Assembly: GCF_000424325.1 (NCBI RefSeq)
Contig: NZ_AUJR01000029.1
Location: 1 to 64,000, forward strand
Direction: 5' to 3'
Origin: [Clostridium] clostridioforme AGR2157
GTDB taxonomy: Bacteria; Bacillota; Clostridia; Lachnospirales; Lachnospiraceae
DNA length: 64,000 bases
Notes under the pieces: model-generated
What the model was told of the DNA's origin: nothing
Database searches by the model: none
The model's input: only the letters and a program-made list of their open reading frames with translations
Shown: piece after piece, positions 26,172-36,509 of the stretch
Numbering within the stretch: the stretch's first letter is position 1
Layout of the letters: the number at the start of each line of letters is the position of its first letter
Position numbers and translations under genes: made by a program

Positions 26172-27809
26172 ATGGAATTATACCGTATCATACTGGTGGA
26201 CGACGAGGAAGAGGTCAGGCAGAGTATCATCAGGAAGATTGACTGGACGGGAGCCGGTTTCTGCGTGGTTGGGGATGCGGAAAACGGGGAGGAGGCCCTG
26301 GAAAAAGTGGAGGCCCTGGAGCCGGACCTGATACTGACGGACATCAGGATGCCCTTTATGGACGGCCTTTCCCTGGCTGAACGGGTGAGGCAGAAATATC
26401 CCTCGGTTAAAATCGTGATTTTTTCAGGCTACGATGATTTTGAGTATGCCAAGCAGGCCATAAAGCTGAATGTGACGGAGTACATCCTGAAGCCTGTGAA
26501 TGTGGAGGAGCTGACTGCCATCTTAAAGCGCATCAAATCCAACCTGGACGATGAGATCGAGCAGAAAAGGAATGTGAGCCTGCTGCGTGAAAATTATATT
26601 CGCAGCCTTCCCATTCTCAGGGACCAGTTTTTAAACGAGCTGGTGGGAAGCACTGTGCCCGGAAATGTACTTAAGGAAAAGCTGGCTGAGTATGATATCC
26701 CGCTGGCAGGAGCCAAGAAATGGGTGGCCGCGGCCATTGACATAGAGCCGGAGGAGATCCGGGAGGGGAATATGCTGCCTCTCCACAAGGAGAGGGACCT
26801 GATTCCCATTTCCGTCATGCAGATAGTGGAGGAGAAGCTGGGGAACTATTGCCGTTCTTCCGTATTCACTTCCTCCAGGACCTCCTGGTCTGAGCTGGCC
26901 CTTATTGCTGCCATTGATGAGGATAACAGCCAGACAGGACTGATTGACGTTCTGGGGGATATCTGCAAGGAGACAAAGAAGATTCTGGAGGTGCCCATCA
27001 CCATTGGCATCGGCCACAGCTGCCAGGACCTGGGGGAGATCAGCGGCTCCTATAAGGCGGCCGTGGACGCCCTTGGCTATAAGGCCATCGTGGGAGCGGG
27101 AAGCACCATCTACATCAATGACGTGGAGCCTGTAAGCGGGGGAAAACTGAGTTTTGACAGCAAGGACGAAGCGGAACTCATTGCGGCCATCAAGTTCGGC
27201 CCCAGGGAGAAGATAGAGGAAGCAGTACAGGCAGTCATGGATAAAATGAGCGATGCAAAGGTGCATTTCAGGCAGTGCCAGGCATATATGCTCAGCGTGT
27301 CCAGTTCCATTGTCCAGCTGATTCAGCAGTATGACCTGGACCTGGAACAGCTGACGGAGGAGGGGGAGGAGCAGGGGGATACCTTTGCCGTCATACCCAG
27401 GATGATGAAAAAGGAGGACTTTGCCCACTGGCTTCTCTCGGCCGCCCTCAGGATGAACCAGGCCATGAACCGGGAGCGGGATAATACCATGAAGCAGGTC
27501 ATCCAGAAGGCCAGGGAATATATTATTGACAATTACCAGGACCCGGATTTATCCGTGGAGAAGATATGCCGCCAGCTGCACATGAGCCCGGCCTATTTCT
27601 CCACCATGTTCAAGAAGGAGACAGGGCAGGCATATACCGCCTACCTGACCCAGGTCCGCCTGGACAAGGCAGTGGAGCTTCTCAACAAGACCGATGACAA
27701 GACCTATGTTATAGCGGCCAAGGTGGGATATCAGGAGCAGAATTATTTCAGCTATGTGTTCAAAAAGCGTTTCGGGGTCTCGCCCACCAAGTTCAGAGGG
27801 GCAAAATAG
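26172..27809 (+). CDS. YesN-type response regulator with AraC DNA-binding domain
   Basis: The 545-residue protein has a receiver domain (D10-D11, predicted phosphoacceptor D57 in LILTDIRMPFMDG, lysine in EYILKPVNVEEL), a long middle region (about 130-430) and a C-terminal AraC/XylS double helix-turn-helix (about 440-545: DLSVEKICRQLHMSPAYFS, then VAAKVGYQEQNYFSYVFKK). Such regulators switch on sugar transport and degradation operons. It forms an operon with the YesM kinase and two binding-protein-like genes, and its likely target is the mgl promoter downstream. Confidence 0.9.
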   Translation: MELYRIILVDDEEEVRQSIIRKIDWTGAGFCVVGDAENGEEALEKVEALEPDLILTDIRMPFMDGLSLAERVRQKYPSVKIVIFSGYDDFEYAKQAIKLNVTEYILKPVNVEELTAILKRIKSNLDDEIEQKRNVSLLRENYIRSLPILRDQFLNELVGSTVPGNVLKEKLAEYDIPLAGAKKWVAAAIDIEPEEIREGNMLPLHKERDLIPISVMQIVEEKLGNYCRSSVFTSSRTSWSELALIAAIDEDNSQTGLIDVLGDICKETKKILEVPITIGIGHSCQDLGEISGSYKAAVDALGYKAIVGAGSTIYINDVEPVSGGKLSFDSKDEAELIAAIKFGPREKIEEAVQAVMDKMSDAKVHFRQCQAYMLSVSSSIVQLIQQYDLDLEQLTEEGEEQGDTFAVIPRMMKKEDFAHWLLSAALRMNQAMNRERDNTMKQVIQKAREYIIDNYQDPDLSVEKICRQLHMSPAYFSTMFKKETGQAYTAYLTQVRLDKAVELLNKTDDKTYVIAAKVGYQEQNYFSYVFKKRFGVSPTKFRGAK

Positions 27810-27874
27810 ATACAAAAGGCCTGCCGCGCCGCGTATTGCGGGAACGCGGCAGGCAGCGTAAAGGAGCAGGGGAC

Positions 27875-29671
27875 ATGTTGTTTGAGAAGCAGAGGATTAA
27901 GCTGCAGAAGGCCAGTATACGGTACATCATATTCATCTACTTTACACTGACGGCCCTGGCCGCCAGTATATTCATAGGCATTTCCCTGTATTCCAGGCTG
28001 TCGGGCCAGATGTCCGCCACCATCCGGGAGGAGAACCAGATTCTGATTAATCAGATCACCAGGTCCATGGAGGATTACCTGCGGACCGTGATGAAGCTGT
28101 CTGATTCCCTGTACTACGGGGTGGTCAAGAATGCGGACCTGGCCAGCGGTTCCATCGGAAGCGAGATGACTCTTCTCTATGACAACAACAAGGACAATGT
28201 GGAGAATATTGCCCTTTTGTCCAAGGAGGGAAAGCTGTTAGAAGCCGTGCCTGCGGCCCGACTTAAGACAAATATGGATGTCACCGGGGAAAACTGGTTT
28301 ACCTCCACCCTGGAGAAGACGGAGAACATGCATTTCTCCACGCCCCATGTCCAGTACATCTTTGACGGCAGCGAGAACCAATACCGGTGGGTCATTTCCC
28401 TGTCAAGGGCAGTGGAAATCACCCAGGGACCTTCCACGGACCAGGGAGTCCTGCTGATTGACATACGCTACAGCAGTCTGGAGCAGCTCTTTGACGGGGT
28501 AAATCTGGGGAACGGAGGCTATGTCTACTTAATCAGCAGCAGCGGGGAAATCATATACCACCCCCAGGCCCAGCTTATTGACTCGGGAATCGTCCGGGAG
28601 AACAACCTGGAGGTATCCGGACTCAGGGACGGCAATTACCGTCAGACCGTGGACGGGGAGGAACGGACCGTCACGGTTAAGACCGTGGGATACACAGGCT
28701 GGAAGGTGGTGGGGGTGACGCCTCTTGACGGCGTGTCCCTCAACAATATCAAGACAAAGCTTCTGGTAATTTTCATGATTGCCTTTGTCCTTTTTATCAT
28801 GACCATCATCAATTCCTATATCTCCTCCAGGATAACGGACCCCATCAAGGAGCTGGAGAAATCCGTCAATGAAATTGAGGCAGGCAATCTGGAGACAGAG
28901 GTCAGGAGCGGAGGTTCCTACGAGATACAGCATCTGGGCAATTCCATACAGAACATGGCCCGGCAGATAGGGCGGCTTATGGACGATATTGTGGCGGAGC
29001 ATGAATCCAAGCGAAAGAGCGAGTTCGACACCCTCCAGGCGCAGATTAACCCCCATTTCCTATATAACACCCTGGATATCATTGTGTGGATGATTGAAAA
29101 TGAGAACCTGACCGACGCGGTGCGGGTCGTGACGGCCCTGGCCAGGTTTTTCCGAATCAGCCTCAGCAGGGGAAAAAGCATTATAGCTGTCAGGGATGAG
29201 CTGGAGCATGTGCGCAACTACCTTATGATTCAGCACATGCGCTATAAAAATAAGTTTACCTATACCGTGGAAGCAGAGGATGAGGTCCTTGACCTGGCCA
29301 GTCTCAAGCTTATCCTCCAGCCTCTGGTGGAAAATGCCATCTATCACGGCATGGAATTCATGGACGGCGACGGGGAAATCCGCATCCGGGCATGGCGCCA
29401 GGATAAGGATTTATTCATGAGTGTATCGGACAACGGCCTGGGGATGACCCGGGAGCAGGTGAAACGGCTGTTCGGGGATACGGACCACGTGCCGTCAGGC
29501 AGGGGATCCGGCATTGGAGTGAAGAATGTCAACGAGCGTATCCGTCTGTATTTTGGAAATGGCTACGGACTGGAAATCGAGTCGGAGCCGGATGAAGGGA
29601 CCACGGTCACGGCCCATCTGCCGGCCATCCCCTACGAGAAAGTAAAGAAAGAGGGATCCTATGTTAAATAA
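27875..29671 (+). CDS. YesM-type membrane sensor histidine kinase
   Basis: The start at 27875 (598 residues) follows AAGGAG. There is one N-terminal transmembrane helix (YIIFIYFTLTALAASIFIGI), an extracellular Cache-like region up to about residue 285, a second helix (LLVIFMIAFVLFIMTIIN), a HAMP domain, the His_kinase domain with QAQINPHFLYNTLDI (predicted phospho-histidine H394) and an HATPase with GSGIGVKNVNERI. It pairs with the YesN-type regulator upstream. The sequence downstream overlaps the next gene by 11 bp, which suggests that the membrane-anchored binding protein is made together with the kinase. Confidence 0.92.
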   Translation: MLFEKQRIKLQKASIRYIIFIYFTLTALAASIFIGISLYSRLSGQMSATIREENQILINQITRSMEDYLRTVMKLSDSLYYGVVKNADLASGSIGSEMTLLYDNNKDNVENIALLSKEGKLLEAVPAARLKTNMDVTGENWFTSTLEKTENMHFSTPHVQYIFDGSENQYRWVISLSRAVEITQGPSTDQGVLLIDIRYSSLEQLFDGVNLGNGGYVYLISSSGEIIYHPQAQLIDSGIVRENNLEVSGLRDGNYRQTVDGEERTVTVKTVGYTGWKVVGVTPLDGVSLNNIKTKLLVIFMIAFVLFIMTIINSYISSRITDPIKELEKSVNEIEAGNLETEVRSGGSYEIQHLGNSIQNMARQIGRLMDDIVAEHESKRKSEFDTLQAQINPHFLYNTLDIIVWMIENENLTDAVRVVTALARFFRISLSRGKSIIAVRDELEHVRNYLMIQHMRYKNKFTYTVEAEDEVLDLASLKLILQPLVENAIYHGMEFMDGDGEIRIRAWRQDKDLFMSVSDNGLGMTREQVKRLFGDTDHVPSGRGSGIGVKNVNERIRLYFGNGYGLEIESEPDEGTTVTAHLPAIPYEKVKKEGSYVK

Positions 29672-30629
29672 AGGAAAAATACTCTGGTGCATATGGGCCG
29701 GTATCCTGGTCCTGCTGTTTTTGATGTCCTCCACGGATCTGATTATCAAGGAAAAGAAAAATGAGGTATATCCGATTTCCGTCATCATAGAGGGGGACAA
29801 CGACGACTACTATGTGAATTTCAAAAAGGGTATGGACCAGGCCGCGGTGGAGTTCCATGGGGATGTCAGTTTTATCACCCTTTATGCATCCGATGACCAG
29901 GCGCAGCAGATGGAGCTGGTAAAACGGGAAATCAGGGACGGTACCAGGGCGGTGCTCCTTGCTCCGGTGAAGCCTGAGGAGGCGGTAAGGGAACTGGAGG
30001 ATATGAACCCCGGCTGCCCCGTCATCCTTCTGGGCCAGTCTCCGGATGAGAGAGGGGATCTGGATACTATCGGTGTGGACGGCAGAGAGATTGGAAGGCT
30101 GCTGGGCGAGGCGGCTTCCAAGGCCCCCAGGGATGTGCCGGTCTATCTCTTTTGCAGGGGGCTGGACTATGGGAACAGCGCCCGGGTCTATGAGGGTGTC
30201 AGGACTGTGCTGGATGCGCAGGGGTATCATTACCGGCTCATTGAGAGGAAAGACCAGGACACATACCGTCAGGCCATACAGGAAACGGACTCTATCGGAG
30301 GCGGCAGGATTACCATTATAGCCCTGGATGTACAGTCGCTGGACCAGGCGACCCGGATACTGGAGGAAAACACCATATACCAGGGCAGGGTGGCAGGACT
30401 CTACGGCGCCGGAAGCACCACATCCCTGCTCAGGGCTCTGGACCAGGGAGTTATCACGGGGCTGACTGCTTATAACCAGTTTGACGAGGGATATTTAAGC
30501 GTGAAGCAGGCAGTGGAAGCCATCCAGGGTACGCGCCAGAAGCAGCAGACCATGCTGGAGGCCATCTATGTGGATGAGGATAAGCTGAGGGATAAGACAT
30601 ACGAGAAAATGCTCTATCCCATTGAGTAA
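29661..30629 (+). CDS. Membrane-anchored periplasmic-binding-protein-like sugar sensor
   Basis: The 322-residue protein has an N-terminal membrane anchor (ILWCIWAGILVLLFLMSS) with no lipobox, followed by a type I periplasmic-binding-protein fold (YPISVIIEGDNDDYYVNFKK at the start, VILLGQSPDERGDLDTIGVD in the middle). It sits in the kinase-regulator operon rather than with transporter subunits. That suggests a sensing accessory that presents ligand state to the YesM-type kinase, as known for some clostridial and Bacillus systems. The ligand is unknown, probably a sugar. Confidence 0.75.
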   Translation: MLNKGKILWCIWAGILVLLFLMSSTDLIIKEKKNEVYPISVIIEGDNDDYYVNFKKGMDQAAVEFHGDVSFITLYASDDQAQQMELVKREIRDGTRAVLLAPVKPEEAVRELEDMNPGCPVILLGQSPDERGDLDTIGVDGREIGRLLGEAASKAPRDVPVYLFCRGLDYGNSARVYEGVRTVLDAQGYHYRLIERKDQDTYRQAIQETDSIGGGRITIIALDVQSLDQATRILEENTIYQGRVAGLYGAGSTTSLLRALDQGVITGLTAYNQFDEGYLSVKQAVEAIQGTRQKQQTMLEAIYVDEDKLRDKTYEKMLYPIE

Positions 30630-30679: not shown

Positions 30680-31732
30680 GTGAAACGGAATTGGATGTAT
30701 CTATTGGCAGCCTGTATGGGGGCGGCTGTCCTCATAGGGTTGTGGCAGTACAGGGGAAGGGAAGACGGGCGGCAGGGGGATAAGAACTCCATCCGCATCG
30801 GGGTTCTGCTCTACCGGGGGGACGATACCTTCATCGGTACCCTGCGCTCCGGCCTGGAGGACAGGGCAAAGGAATATGAACAGGAAACAGGGATCAAGGT
30901 GAAGTTAGATATCATGGACGCCAAGGGGAGCCAGAATACCCAGAACAGCCAGGTGGAACGCCTGATTTCCCTGGGCTGCGATGCCCTGTGCATCAACAGC
31001 GTGGACCGTTCGTCGGCTTCCATCATCATTGACAAGGCCATGGATGCAGGCACTCCGGTGGTGTTCTTTAACCGGGAGCCGGTGGAGGAGGACATGAACC
31101 GCTGGGAAAAGCTGTACTATGTGGGAGCGGACGCCAAGGAATCGGCCATGCTCCAGGGAAACATCCTGGTGGATGCCTACCGCCAGGATTCACGTATCCT
31201 GGATGCCAATGGCAACGGCCTGGTAAGCTATGTGCTCCTGGAGGGGGAGACCAGCCATCAGGATTCCCTGATCCGCACGGAGTGGTCCATCCAGACACTA
31301 AAGGACGGGGACGTTCCGCTGGAGAAGATTACGGGAGGAATTGCCAACTGGGACAGAAGCCAGGCATCAGCCCTGATGGAGCAGTGGCTGAAGGAGTATC
31401 CGGGCCAGATTGAACTGGTGGTCAGCAACAATGACGACATGGCCCTGGGAGCCATCGACGCCATGAACCGGGCCGGAATCGGGGCCAATTCCATCAAGGT
31501 GGTGGGTATCGACGGCACCCCTGTGGGCATAAAGGCCCTGGAGGAAGGGTATCTTTTCGGTACAGTGGAATCAGATAAGGAACGCTACGCCCAGGCCATA
31601 TTTGACATTGTCTGGAGCCTGTCCCTGAACCAGGACCCAAAGGACAGGGTGCCGCAGCTGGATGGAAATTATTACTGGTGTCCTCAGAGGGCTTTGACCC
31701 AGGCTGAGGCAAAAGTGCTTAAAAATCAGTGA
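30680..31732 (+). CDS. MglB-like galactose/glucose-binding protein, canonical domain order, membrane-anchored
   Basis: The 350-residue protein starts at GTG. A short hydrophobic N-terminus (residues 6-22) probably anchors it; a Cys at residue 12 resembles a lipobox but leaves a very short signal. The binding fold is in the usual order: SIRIGVLLYRGDDTFIGTL (37-55), DALCINSVDRSSAS, TPVVFFNREP (125-134), GETSHQDSLIRTEW, VVSNNDDMALGA, VVGIDGTPVG. These match E. coli MglB sugar-contact regions. Lying in the signalling operon upstream of the mgl promoter, it may be a second sensor or an alternative binding protein. It is the reference for recognising the permutation in the next gene. Confidence 0.85.
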   Translation: MKRNWMYLLAACMGAAVLIGLWQYRGREDGRQGDKNSIRIGVLLYRGDDTFIGTLRSGLEDRAKEYEQETGIKVKLDIMDAKGSQNTQNSQVERLISLGCDALCINSVDRSSASIIIDKAMDAGTPVVFFNREPVEEDMNRWEKLYYVGADAKESAMLQGNILVDAYRQDSRILDANGNGLVSYVLLEGETSHQDSLIRTEWSIQTLKDGDVPLEKITGGIANWDRSQASALMEQWLKEYPGQIELVVSNNDDMALGAIDAMNRAGIGANSIKVVGIDGTPVGIKALEEGYLFGTVESDKERYAQAIFDIVWSLSLNQDPKDRVPQLDGNYYWCPQRALTQAEAKVLKNQ

Positions 31733-31890: not shown

Positions 31891-33231
31891 ATGAAGAAAG
31901 CATTAAGTGTTGCTCTTGCGTGTTCCATGGCATTATCACTGGTTGCCTGCGGAGGCGGCAGCAAGCCAACGGAAGCACCAACCACAGCCACTGCAGGGGA
32001 TACCACAACCGAGGCAGCAGCAGACACAACCGCGGCAGACTCAGCAGCGGCACCGGAAGCAGGCGCAGAGGTGGCAAACAAGGATAAGCCTTTAGTATGG
32101 TTCAACCGCCAGCCATCCAGCAGTGCGACAGGACAGCTTGATATGACAGCCTTGAATTTCAATAAGGATACATATTATGTAGGTTTCGACGCAAACCAGG
32201 GTGCTGAGCTTCAGGGAATCATGGTTAAGGACTACATCGAGAAGAACATCGACTCAATTGACCGCAACGGCGACGGAATCATCGGCTACGTTCTGGCAAT
32301 CGGAGACATCGGACATAACGACTCTATCGCACGTACAAGAGGTATCCGTAAGGCTCTTGGCACCGCGGTAGAGAAAGACGGCAACATCAACAGCGATCCT
32401 GTTGGTACAAACGCTGACGGTACAGCAACTGTTGTACAGGACGGCTCCATCGAAGTTGGCGGAAAGACATATGTTGTCCGCGAGCTTGCTTCCCAGGAGA
32501 TGAAGAACTCCGCAGGCGCTACATGGGATGCTGCCACAGCAGGTAATGCAATAGGCACATGGTCTTCTTCTTTTGGCGATCAGATTGATGTTGTTGCATC
32601 CAATAACGACGGTATGGGCATGTCCATGTTCAACGCATGGTCCAAGGACAATAAGGTTCCTACATTTGGCTATGATGCAAACAGCGATGCAGTAGCTGCT
32701 ATCGCAGAGGGCTACGGCGGCACAATCAGCCAGCATGCAGACGTACAGGCTTACCTGACTCTTCGCGTACTGCGTAACGCACTGGACGGAGTTGATATTG
32801 ATACAGGTATCGGCACAGCAGACGATGCAGGCAATGTCCTGAGTTCTGATGTATATGTTTACAAGGCAGATGAGCGTTCCTACTACGCACTGAACGTTGC
32901 TGTTACTGCTGAAAATTATACAGATTTCACAGATTCCACAATGGTATATGCACCTGTATCCAATCAGCTGGATGAGGCTGCCCATGCCACAAAGAATGTA
33001 TGGCTGAATATCTACAACTCAGCTGATAACTTCCTTGGATCAACCTATCAGCCTTTGCTTCAGAAATACGATAAGCTTCTCAACCTTAAGGTTGACTACA
33101 TCGGCGGCGACGGGCAGACAGAGTCCAATATTACAAACCGTCTTGGAAATCCAAGCCAGTATGACGCATTTGCCATCAACATGGTTAAGACAGACAATGC
33201 AGCTTCATACACATCTCTGCTTGAGCAGTAA
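31891..33231 (+). CDS. mglB: Galactose/glucose ABC transporter binding lipoprotein, apparently circularly permuted MglB
   Basis: The 446-residue protein has a lipoprotein signal ending LSLVAC (C20), then a Thr/Ala/Glu-rich linker (21-64). The folded part does not start with strand beta-1 of MglB. It starts at KPLVWFNRQP (66-75), which matches residues 125-134 (TPVVFFNREP) of the upstream paralogue, and continues in normal order: DTYYVGFDANQGAELQG, the calcium-loop-like DRNGDGIIGY, GHNDSIARTR, ASNNDGMGM, FGYDANSD. After the normal C-terminus the missing start appears: NVWLNIYNSADNFLGSTY (369-386) to YDAFAINMVKTDNAASYT. The sugar-contact Asp, Phe, Asn, His, Arg and Trp positions of E. coli MglB are retained, so it should bind hexose. 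It is followed by mglA and mglC. Confidence 0.85.
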   Translation: MKKALSVALACSMALSLVACGGGSKPTEAPTTATAGDTTTEAAADTTAADSAAAPEAGAEVANKDKPLVWFNRQPSSSATGQLDMTALNFNKDTYYVGFDANQGAELQGIMVKDYIEKNIDSIDRNGDGIIGYVLAIGDIGHNDSIARTRGIRKALGTAVEKDGNINSDPVGTNADGTATVVQDGSIEVGGKTYVVRELASQEMKNSAGATWDAATAGNAIGTWSSSFGDQIDVVASNNDGMGMSMFNAWSKDNKVPTFGYDANSDAVAAIAEGYGGTISQHADVQAYLTLRVLRNALDGVDIDTGIGTADDAGNVLSSDVYVYKADERSYYALNVAVTAENYTDFTDSTMVYAPVSNQLDEAAHATKNVWLNIYNSADNFLGSTYQPLLQKYDKLLNLKVDYIGGDGQTESNITNRLGNPSQYDAFAINMVKTDNAASYTSLLEQ

Positions 33232-33329: not shown

Positions 33330-34838
33330 ATGGCAGATAAGAAAGATGATATCGTCTTATCAATACGCGGTATGAGCAAGTCCTTCGGCCGGAACAGAGT
33401 TCTGGACCATATCAACCTGGATGTGAAGCGCGGAACCGTTATGGGGCTTATGGGTGAGAACGGAGCTGGTAAGTCAACCATGATGAAGTGCCTTTTCGGC
33501 ACCTACCAGAAAGACGAGGGAAATATCTTCCTGAACGGCAAGGAAGTAAGCTTTTCCGGACCAAAGGATGCTCTTGAAAACGGCATTGCAATGGTTCACC
33601 AGGAATTGAATCAGTGTCTGGAACGGAATGTAATTGACAATTTATTCCTCGGACGTTATCCGGTCAATTCCATGGGTGTAATTGATGAAGGCAGGATGAA
33701 AAAGGAAGCAGCCGAGCTCTTTAGAAAATTGGGAATGACCGTTAACCTCACTCAGCCCATGAGCCGCATGTCCGTATCACAGAGGCAGATGTGCGAAATC
33801 GCCAAGGCCATCTCCTACAATTCAAGGGTGATTGTTCTGGATGAGCCCACATCCTCCCTGACCGTGCAGGAGGTTAATAAGCTCTTCGAGATGATGAGGA
33901 TGTTAAAGGAGCAGGGAATCGCCCTGATTTATATTTCCCACAAGATGGATGAGATTTTTGAAATCTGCGATGAGATATCAGTGCTTCGGGACGGCAATCT
34001 GGTTATGACAAAGAGCACCAAGGATGCAAACATGAATGAGCTGATTGCGGCAATGGTCGGCCGTTCCCTTGATAACCGGTTCCCGCCTGTTGACAATACC
34101 CCCGGTGATGTGATTCTGTCCATCCAGAATCTGTCCACAAAGTTTGAGCCTCACTTGCAGGATGTTTCATTTGACGTAAAAGAAGGAGAAATATTCGGGC
34201 TGTACGGCCTGGTAGGAGCAGGGCGCACGGAACTTCTGGAAACAATCTTTGGTGTCCGCACCAGAGCGGCGGGACGTGTTTATTTTAATAACCGTCTTAT
34301 GAATTTCAGCAGCGCAAAGGAAGCCATGGAGCATGGTTTTGCCATGATTACCGAGGAGCGGAAGGCAAATGGCCTGTTTTTAAAAGGGGACCTTACCTTT
34401 AATACCACCATTGCCAATCTGCAGCAGTATATGTCGGGCATAGCGCTTTCCGATGCAAAGATGATAAAGGCCACGTCAAACGAAATTAAGATCATGCACA
34501 CCAAGTGCATGGGCCCCGACGATATGATTTCCAGCCTTTCCGGCGGAAATCAGCAGAAGGTCATTTTCGGAAAGTGGCTGGAGCGCAGTCCGCAGGTGTT
34601 TATGATGGACGAACCTACACGAGGAATCGACGTGGGCGCAAAGTATGAAATATATGAGCTTATCATCAATATGGCGAAGCAGGGGAAGACAATCATCGTT
34701 GTTTCTTCTGAGATGCCGGAGATTCTCGGAATTACAAACCGTATTGGTGTTATGTCAAATGGACGTCTTTCCGGAATTGTTAATACAAAAGAGACAAATC
34801 AGGAAGAACTTTTAAGGCTCAGTGCAAAATACCTATAA
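33330..34838 (+). CDS. mglA: Galactose/methyl-galactoside-type ABC transporter ATPase MglA
   Basis: The 502-residue ATPase has two ABC domains in tandem, typical of ribose/galactose importers. Domain 1 has GENGAGKSTMMKCLFG, a degenerate signature MSVSQRQMCEIAKAI and Walker B VIVLDEPTSSL. Domain 2 has an atypical P-loop GLVGAGRTELLE, the signature LSGGNQQKVIFGKWL and VFMMDEPTRGIDVG. Asymmetric sites of this kind are usual in MglA/RbsA. It powers import through MglC. Confidence 0.93.
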   Translation: MADKKDDIVLSIRGMSKSFGRNRVLDHINLDVKRGTVMGLMGENGAGKSTMMKCLFGTYQKDEGNIFLNGKEVSFSGPKDALENGIAMVHQELNQCLERNVIDNLFLGRYPVNSMGVIDEGRMKKEAAELFRKLGMTVNLTQPMSRMSVSQRQMCEIAKAISYNSRVIVLDEPTSSLTVQEVNKLFEMMRMLKEQGIALIYISHKMDEIFEICDEISVLRDGNLVMTKSTKDANMNELIAAMVGRSLDNRFPPVDNTPGDVILSIQNLSTKFEPHLQDVSFDVKEGEIFGLYGLVGAGRTELLETIFGVRTRAAGRVYFNNRLMNFSSAKEAMEHGFAMITEERKANGLFLKGDLTFNTTIANLQQYMSGIALSDAKMIKATSNEIKIMHTKCMGPDDMISSLSGGNQQKVIFGKWLERSPQVFMMDEPTRGIDVGAKYEIYELIINMAKQGKTIIVVSSEMPEILGITNRIGVMSNGRLSGIVNTKETNQEELLRLSAKYL

Positions 34839-34847
34839 GGGGGATTC

Positions 34848-36509
34848 ATGGATATGGCGAAAGGAAACAATGAGACTCTTACGGCTGAACAGGAAATGCG
34901 GCTGCGCCAGCCAATTGAGGATTATGTTGGCGAAATTCAGAAAAAAATCGACAGTCTCAGAGCGGACGGCACAAACAAGGTAGTCGCTCTGCAAAATAGT
35001 ATTGATGCAACAAAGAGAGACCGTTCCCTTACAAAGGAAGAAAGGGAAAACAGAATTGCGGCTAACAGCACGGAGATGGAGAAAGCAAAGGCTGTTGAGT
35101 CAAAGAACAAGGATGAGATTGCAAAATTAATCTCCGATGCGGAGAGTTACCTTAAGGCACATTTTGATAAGGATTATTATCTGCCGTTAAAGGAAAGCTG
35201 TGAGCGGGAAAAAGCGCTTGCAAAGGAAAAATACGACATTAAAGTTGCGGAACTGAACAAAGAACATGAAAATACCCTCTCAAAGCTTACGGACCATCAG
35301 GAGATAAAGGATGAGAAGTATGTTCATAAGAACCGCCTGTTTGACGCAAAGATGGACCTGGACAAGGAGCTTCAGCGGATCAAGGACAGAAGGCATGCGG
35401 CATTTGTCTGGCAGTATCACCTGATTGACATGCTCCGCCTGTCTAAATTCACCTTCATGGAGACCAGGGCGCAGAAATGGGAGAACTATAAATATACATT
35501 CAACCGCAGGACATTCTTACTGCAGAATGGACTGTATATCGCTATTATCCTGATTTTCATCGGACTGTGTATCGCTGCGCCGGTGATAAAGAATGTTCAG
35601 CTGCTTACCTATAATAACGTTTTAAATATCTTGCAGCAGGCTTCTCCGAGAATGTTCCTGGCTCTGGGCGTTGCTGGACTCATCCTCCTTACCGGTACGG
35701 ACCTTTCCATAGGACGTATGGTTGGTATGGGCATGACCACCGCGACAATCATCATGCATCAGGGCATCAACACAGGCGCTGTGTTCGGACACGTGTTTGA
35801 CTTCACAGGCATGCCCATTGGAGTAAGAGTGGTATTTGCCCTGGTAATGTGTATCATCTTATGTACATGCTTTACGGCCATCGGAGGTTTCTTTACCGCT
35901 AAATTCAAGATGCATCCGTTCATTTCAACCATGGCCAACATGCTGGTCATTTTTGGACTTGTAACATATGCCACAAAGGGTGTATCCTTTGGTGCCATTG
36001 AACCGGCTATTCCAAAGATGATTATTCCAAAAATAAACGGGTTCCCAACCATTATCCTGTGGGCAGTGGCTGCCATCGTAATCGTATGGTTCATCTGGAA
36101 CAAGACCACCTTCGGCAAGAATTTATACGCAGTAGGCGGTAACCCGGAAGCAGCAGCTGTTTCAGGTATCTCCGTATTCGGAGTAACCATGGGAGCATTC
36201 ATTCTGGCAGGCATCCTTTACGGATTCGGATCCTGGCTGGAATGCGCAAGAATGGTAGGTTCCGGCTCCGCTGCTTACGGCCAGGGCTGGGAGATGGATG
36301 CAATCGCAGCCTGCGTGGTTGGCGGCGTATCCTTTACCGGCGGTATCGGTAAGATTTCAGGCGTAGTAGTCGGCGTACTTATATTCACCGTACTCATCTA
36401 CTCCCTTACCATTCTCGGTATTGACACAAACCTTCAGTTCGTATTCGAGGGCATCATTATTATAACCGCTGTAACACTTGACTGCTTGAAGTATGTTCAG
36501 AAGAAGTAA
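34848..36509 (+). CDS. mglC: Galactose-type ABC transporter permease MglC with N-terminal helical extension
   Basis: Residues from about 223 to 553 form a usual RbsC/MglC permease with multiple membrane helices (LYIAIILIFIGLCIAAPVI, then ALGVAGLILLTGTDLSIGRM and VGGVSFTGGIGKISGVVVG). In front lies a ~220-residue hydrophilic region, very rich in Lys, Glu, Asp and Ala with heptad-like spacing (for example residues 75-180), predicted helical or coiled-coil and cytoplasmic. E. coli MglC has no such domain (336 residues). Nothing in it is recognised as an enzyme. The frame is continuous from a start preceded by AAGGGGGA. The gene ends at the paired repeat elements. Confidence 0.87.
   Translation: MDMAKGNNETLTAEQEMRLRQPIEDYVGEIQKKIDSLRADGTNKVVALQNSIDATKRDRSLTKEERENRIAANSTEMEKAKAVESKNKDEIAKLISDAESYLKAHFDKDYYLPLKESCEREKALAKEKYDIKVAELNKEHENTLSKLTDHQEIKDEKYVHKNRLFDAKMDLDKELQRIKDRRHAAFVWQYHLIDMLRLSKFTFMETRAQKWENYKYTFNRRTFLLQNGLYIAIILIFIGLCIAAPVIKNVQLLTYNNVLNILQQASPRMFLALGVAGLILLTGTDLSIGRMVGMGMTTATIIMHQGINTGAVFGHVFDFTGMPIGVRVVFALVMCIILCTCFTAIGGFFTAKFKMHPFISTMANMLVIFGLVTYATKGVSFGAIEPAIPKMIIPKINGFPTIILWAVAAIVIVWFIWNKTTFGKNLYAVGGNPEAAAVSGISVFGVTMGAFILAGILYGFGSWLECARMVGSGSAAYGQGWEMDAIAACVVGGVSFTGGIGKISGVVVGVLIFTVLIYSLTILGIDTNLQFVFEGIIIITAVTLDCLKYVQKK

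Follow-up and report, generated by a model that had tools for sequence, protein, structure and literature searches.

An mgl-type operon and its regulatory neighbours

The window, meaning the whole stretch of DNA that was analysed, comprises 64,000 nucleotides from [Clostridium] clostridioforme AGR2157, a member of the Lachnospiraceae (contig NZ_AUJR01000029.1, positions 1 to 64,000). It carries seven adjoining genes on the plus strand, four of them predicted to be regulatory and three predicted to encode a sugar importer, whose binding protein, here called cpMglB, has its sequence blocks in a circularly permuted order. The genes and their features are listed below.

26172..27809, plus strand: response regulator with an AraC-type DNA-binding domain (Pfam domains)
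27875..29671, plus strand: sensor histidine kinase with dCache_1, HAMP, His_kinase and HATPase_c (Pfam domains; alternative start at 27836)
29661..30629, plus strand: PBP1, a second periplasmic-binding-like protein, weakly TorT-like, with an N-terminal hydrophobic stretch
30680..31732, plus strand: PBP2, a normal-order MglB-like binding protein and putative sensor subunit (Pfam, NCBIfam, neighbourhood and alignment)
31891..33231, plus strand: cpMglB, a 446-aa lipoprotein in circularly permuted (Type Ic) order, predicted to bind glucose/galactose (Pfam order, TpMglB-2 colinearity, rotation test and fold search)
31891..31950, plus strand: lipoprotein signal peptide of cpMglB, up to lipobox Cys20 (sequence; Cys20 nearly invariant in a 25-row alignment)
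31951..32076, plus strand: low-complexity Thr/Ala-rich linker of cpMglB, residues 21-62 (sequence; mostly variable in the 25-row alignment)
32260..32286, plus strand: calcium-loop motif DRNGDGIIG of cpMglB, residues 124-132 (eight of nine positions invariant and residue 130 variable in the 25-row alignment; role by MglB homology)
32989..33201, plus strand: moved block of cpMglB, residues 367-437, C-terminal, predicted to be the first beta-alpha units of the N-lobe (Peripla_BP_7; Pfam PF18610, rotation test and alignment)
33330..34838, plus strand: mglA, importer ATPase (best NCBIfam match PRK10982 MglA, 665.8 bits, under the cut-off of 828)
34848..36509, plus strand: mglC, importer permease, 553 aa (best NCBIfam match MglC, 272.7 bits against a cut-off of 386, residues 220-553 only)
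34848..35492, plus strand: N-terminal extension of MglC, about 215 aa, predicted helical (AF2; outside the NCBIfam MglC match)

The cpMglB open reading frame is as the original prediction described it, 446 codons long with an ATG start and a lipobox (LVAC, Cys20). The same prediction had placed the lipid anchor next to the ligand hinge, which is too strong a statement because the linker of about 42 residues separates the anchor from the fold, which begins at about residue 63. Its further proposal, that the new N-terminus would alter docking on the permease, is conjectural. mglA and mglC lie directly downstream of cpMglB, giving the order binding protein, CUT2-type ATPase and permease known from MglBAC and CUT2 importers. 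Against the NCBIfam MglB equivalog PRK15395, cpMglB scored 87.1 bits, far under the cut-off of 420, which is what a permuted chain would give.

Block order of the binding protein

In cpMglB, Peripla_BP_4 matched residues 49-300, from profile position 64 onward only, and Peripla_BP_7 (PF18610) was placed after it, at residues 367-437 (E 4.1e-42), the block order claimed in the original prediction. The upstream protein (30680..31732) had served there as a normal-order internal reference, and it keeps this role because Peripla_BP_4 matched it from profile position 1 (residues 40-314). BLASTP aligned cpMglB residues 67-275 with residues 126-291 of the upstream protein (28% identity, E 6e-20) and bore out the earlier pairing of upstream residues 125-134 with 66-75; upstream residues 38-53, earlier paired with 369-384, belong rather with 368-383 (L44-Y45 with I374-Y375).

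We performed a rotation test in which local alignment scores of the cpMglB core (residues 63-446) were compared between natural and rotated starts. Rotation lifted the score against E. coli MglB from 224 to 255, the best start lying at residues 301-364, as an alignment allowing for permutation had been expected to do, and that against the upstream protein from 204 to 227. For the two normal-order controls the gain was no more than 2 points (471 to 471 and 471 to 473). When the moved block was shuffled, the rotated score was attained in 2 of 1000 cases for E. coli MglB and in 4 of 1000 for the upstream protein. Taken alone, the moved block gave a score that was equalled by 72 of 2000 shuffles against the N-terminus of E. 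coli MglB and by 9 of 2000 against that of the upstream protein, and its sequence similarity by itself would be thin evidence for a permutation. This is in accord with the 13% identity published for the moved part of TpMglB-2 (PMC4990184).

The weak similarity of the moved block to the MglB N-terminus is also what could be said for an MglB gene of the usual kind whose end is chimeric, mis-assembled or frameshifted and so resembles a permutation. We consider this reading vanishingly improbable, given that a one-segment match reaches residues 444-446 in all of the best 80 loci of 452 relatives and that the order is found in 23 of 200 family genomes, in Treponema saccharophilum and in a solved structure. 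With the order recurring in named genomes, in two phyla and in a crystal structure, a chimera or assembly artefact was ruled out.

We take the permutation to be settled by the colinear match of cpMglB to the solved permuted structure of TpMglB-2 (Tp0684). cpMglB residues 63-444 run colinear with chain residues 19-385 of TpMglB-2 (PDB 5jx2, 6bgd, 6bgc; E 2.7e-89 to 2.5e-87), and the next-best solved relatives are normal-order MglBs, which begin at E of about 2e-19 and were matched in two stretches. An AF2 model of cpMglB, built on a 25-row alignment of close relatives, had a mean pLDDT of 53.9 and shows residues 368-432 as beta-alpha-beta-alpha-beta with low confidence; the beta-alpha units that had been expected there do appear, but with such a mean the model can be supporting evidence at most, and the fold rests on homology. 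A fold search with this weak model returned four TpMglB-2 chains as the top PDB matches (E 4.7e-28 to 5.2e-26). The region of the fourth lobe crossover and the connecting segment falls in the aligned stretch of approximately residues 301-366, where pLDDT is below 50. Type Ic proteins encode the first three N-lobe strands after the rest of the fold and carry a lipid anchor; the sequence of cpMglB has this strand order, with which the low-confidence model agrees, and lipobox Cys20 provides the anchor, its lipidation being sequence-predicted. Judged from its sequence, cpMglB is an MglB-type sugar-binding lipoprotein in circularly permuted order.

The permutation is real, but it belongs to an already known class. 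The permuted topology of TpMglB-2 was solved by crystallography in 2016 and named 'Type Ic', a topology that the published account reports in treponemes and in Gram-positive, often gut, bacteria (PMC4990184). Besides that account, we recognised no paper on the permuted protein itself in our searches of the open-licence PMC literature. TpMglB-2 (Type Ic / Cluster Bc; PMC4990184) shares with cpMglB the permuted order, colinear over residues 63-444, a Gln at the position of E. coli MglB (EcMglB) N256, the calcium loop, the lipid anchor and a cognate permease gene. In contrast to TpMglB-2, cpMglB has a Gram-positive host, and a long Thr/Ala-rich linker follows its lipobox Cys, and its gene adjoins a two-component system with binding proteins of its own. 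E. coli MglB is a soluble periplasmic protein. It has in common with cpMglB the sugar-contact residues, the mglBAC gene order and, by homology, the two-lobed fold, whereas the chain order is rotated in cpMglB.

Ligand, transport and sensing

To compare sugar contacts, we aligned 28 permuted proteins, in rotated form, with 19 normal-order neighbours and E. coli MglB. Eight of the EcMglB glucose contacts (D14, F16, N91, H152, R158, W183, N211 and D236) were kept in 28/28 permuted proteins and D154 in 27/28, and N256 was replaced by Gln in 28/28. Among the 19 normal-order neighbours, eight contact positions were kept in all, H152 in 18 and N256 in 16; the protein upstream of cpMglB has Ser at the N256 position. 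cpMglB itself keeps nine of the ten EcMglB contact residues, the tenth being the Gln common to TpMglB-2, and this alignment, together with the eight invariant positions of the calcium-loop motif, upholds the earlier claim that sugar contacts and motif are retained. TpMglB-2 has Gln at the N256 position and Asn at D14 (Table 2 of PMC4990184), whereas cpMglB has Asp at D14, a difference which suggests that the sugar preference may differ. For TpMglB-2, glucose binding with closure was demonstrated, and dissociation constants (KD) of 1.1 uM for D-glucose and 33 uM for D-galactose were reported (PMC4990184).

The kept contact residues and calcium-loop motif make glucose/galactose binding the best inference, and cpMglB is best read as serving a glucose/galactose ABC importer as its binding component. 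It is very likely a Type Ic MglB with its cleft kept, most probably binding D-glucose and/or D-galactose and feeding the MglA/MglC importer. Lipid-anchored and two-lobed, the protein would retain its fold and ligand cleft with the strand order of the N-lobe rotated, would close on D-glucose and/or D-galactose and would hand the sugar to the importer encoded directly downstream.

We further considered the regulatory neighbours. Of the 23 family genomes with the permuted operon, 17 have a kinase and both binding-like proteins next to it, on one side or the other; one of the 17 had no recovered response regulator (L142) and another had the regulator split in two ORFs (L143). The six others comprise two loci that end with the contig about 3.8 kb downstream (L155, L156), one with regulator and kinase and no binding proteins (L158), and three with none of these genes in the stretch examined (L130, L141, L145). 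Agathobacter rectalis has the same seven genes, publicly annotated. None of the four regulatory genes was found in the neighbourhood of the treponeme permuted operon. By analogy with CuaDSR (PMC10384115) and XylFII-LytS, PBP2 may sense sugar for the kinase, with cpMglB feeding the importer, and the two-component system could regulate the operon through this normal-order protein. In those systems too, a histidine kinase and response regulator are accompanied by a separate binding protein and lie near a sugar importer; they differ from the arrangement here, known from gene neighbourhood, in which a normal-order MglB homologue is the candidate for the sensor, accompanied by a second binding-like protein and placed beside a permuted transport protein.

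Distribution and the extended permease

The moved-block family PF18610 occurs as a single copy in the window genome and was found in 15 of 61 relatives, with 12 of 17 in the same genus (a patchy distribution even within the genus), in 23 of 200 family genomes (completeness 90 or more), in 4 of 391 class genomes and in 2 of 299 phylum genomes, each sample including the window's own genome and the samples overlapping. The family count answers the survey of Lachnospiraceae that the original prediction had called for. Scanning named genomes brought up 452 relatives, the best 80 of which all show the permuted order; many of the titles among these 80 are Lachnospiraceae or genera which we take to belong there. 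Of viral contigs, 46 stretches fitted a pattern and none was confirmed as a cpMglB relative. In a tree built from 70 binding proteins, all 28 permuted members fall on one side of one branch with support of 100/100, a grouping present in 100% of 200 bootstrap trees; the separating branch is long and drew long-branch warnings, and the midpoint root serves for drawing only. The permutation is inherited, one origin being enough within the set examined.

Outside the Lachnospiraceae, in the spirochete Treponema saccharophilum, the permuted gene (45.9% identity) precedes genes for an ATPase and a 562-aa permease. This operon (L134) lies on the 382-kb plasmid pTS2. The Agathobacter rectalis locus (L138) lies on a 252-kb record called a plasmid and comprises the full permuted mgl operon, the two-component system and the two binding proteins; a few kb upstream there are integrase and transposase genes.

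The fourth class genome with PF18610 (G872) carries an apparently orphan permuted MglB (L161:9139-10401) with no mglA or mglC in approximately 9 kb on each side; its same-strand neighbours resemble HD-GYP and GGDEF proteins, and its D154 is replaced by Ile. No MglC match was obtained in this genome at E 1e-45, with 5 of 11 first-look candidates scored. The orphan may have been recruited, as a permuted binding protein, into cyclic-di-GMP signalling. It is also the observation that speaks for cpMglB binding a different sugar, or mainly signalling rather than serving uptake, a reading we regard as decidedly improbable in view of the nine kept contacts, the Gln shared with TpMglB-2 at the tenth, and the mglA and mglC genes directly downstream. 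An uptake protein for glucose and/or galactose remains our preferred reading of cpMglB.

MglC here has 553 residues, whereas E. coli MglC has 336 and no extension. The extension belongs to no Pfam family and had no significant sequence match in the PDB (best E 0.093). The whole MglC model from AF2 is weak (mean pLDDT 56.0, on a 25-row alignment of close relatives) and the extension alone is confident, with block pLDDT of 84-94 over residues 11-190 and 67 for residues 191-200 and predicted helices at residues 13-39, 42-57, 63-146 and 150-197. A fold search with the extension gave nothing from the PDB at E of 0.001 or less; the top rows, at E of about 0.2, were a designed helix bundle and BAR domains, which we took as a generic long-helix resemblance. 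We found no description of an N-terminal MglC extension in our searches of the open-licence PMC literature. In the main text of PMC4990184 the word 'coiled' is absent and 'extension' occurs twice, both times as primer extension; according to the same account, TpMglB-2 and its cognate permease Tp0686 have similarly distributed homologues. Our searches of open-licence PMC left one feature of the locus for which we found no published description, namely its pairing with an extended permease.

Scanning 130 loci yielded 87 with a complete MglC ORF, some loci overlapping or repeating, and the extension was matched in 86 of the 87. In five of the 86 less of it lies in the same ORF: 171-179 residues at L072, L086, L092 and L093, and 48 at L077, where the rest is in a neighbouring ORF. 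The exception, L021, has the extension in an adjacent ORF. At this locus (L021:10047-11707) mglC is in two ORFs, with the extension apart from the membrane part, and assembly errors are likely because several other genes there also match partially.

Searching the 200 family genomes for the extension recovered the same 23 that carry PF18610 (E 2.8e-44 or better) and two further weak matches (E 3.5e-4 and 9.1e-4). A weak match in G408 is a 195-aa frame (E 9.1e-4); the one in G524 was rejected as a permease, its ORF resembling RecN. In the phylum sample, extension and PF18610 occurred in the same 2 of 299 genomes. Among plasmid records, 22 had an MglB match, two of which span 80% or more of the permuted protein, and only those two match the extension. 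The 562-aa treponeme permease aligns with the MglC here along the extension, which by tblastn is weakly similar (E 2e-4 over 66 residues).

As a control, we searched 391 class genomes with MglC at E 1e-45 or better, scoring at most five candidates per genome. Matches were obtained in 47 genomes, and 51 were listed: three of 556-567 aa (G000, G129, G773), all in genomes with PF18610, 47 of 333-419 aa and one 201-aa fragment. Of the 48 non-extended places we examined 20, taken for the most part from the head of the list and including the two in the window's own genome. All 20 were mgl-type operons whose MglB is in normal order, and neither the moved block nor the extension was matched in any of them. 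In Fusobacterium animalis, an annotated mglB accompanies a 339-aa MglC.

These co-occurrences, in the family and phylum samples, in the two plasmid records and in the 20 operons that lack the extension, are what would support a functional coupling of permutation and permease extension, the two having been selected together. We consider such coupling unlikely. All the permuted proteins are gathered on one side of a single branch, so that linkage may have passed on a single event; the extension should be cytoplasmic and the binding protein outside, and direct contact is therefore not expected; similarity of the treponeme extension by tblastn is weak; and one orphan permuted protein has no permease nearby. 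Shared descent may suffice for the pairing of the permuted protein with the extended permease. It is conceivable, if rather doubtful, that importers with a permuted MglB form a distinct subclass in which the permuted protein outside and a cytoplasmic helical permease domain of about 200 residues, acting as a control or assembly module (for instance in coupling uptake to metabolism), were kept together in two phyla, with a normal-order MglB paralogue doing the sensing.

Two more mgl-type operons with normal-order binding proteins are encoded in the window genome (L211 and L212, on contigs C13 and C77), so both designs can be compared in one organism. Altogether, raw sequence confirms a natural circular permutation of an importer binding protein that recurs across gut Lachnospiraceae, and the N-extended permease that accompanies the permuted protein poses a testable question, namely why the permuted design persists.
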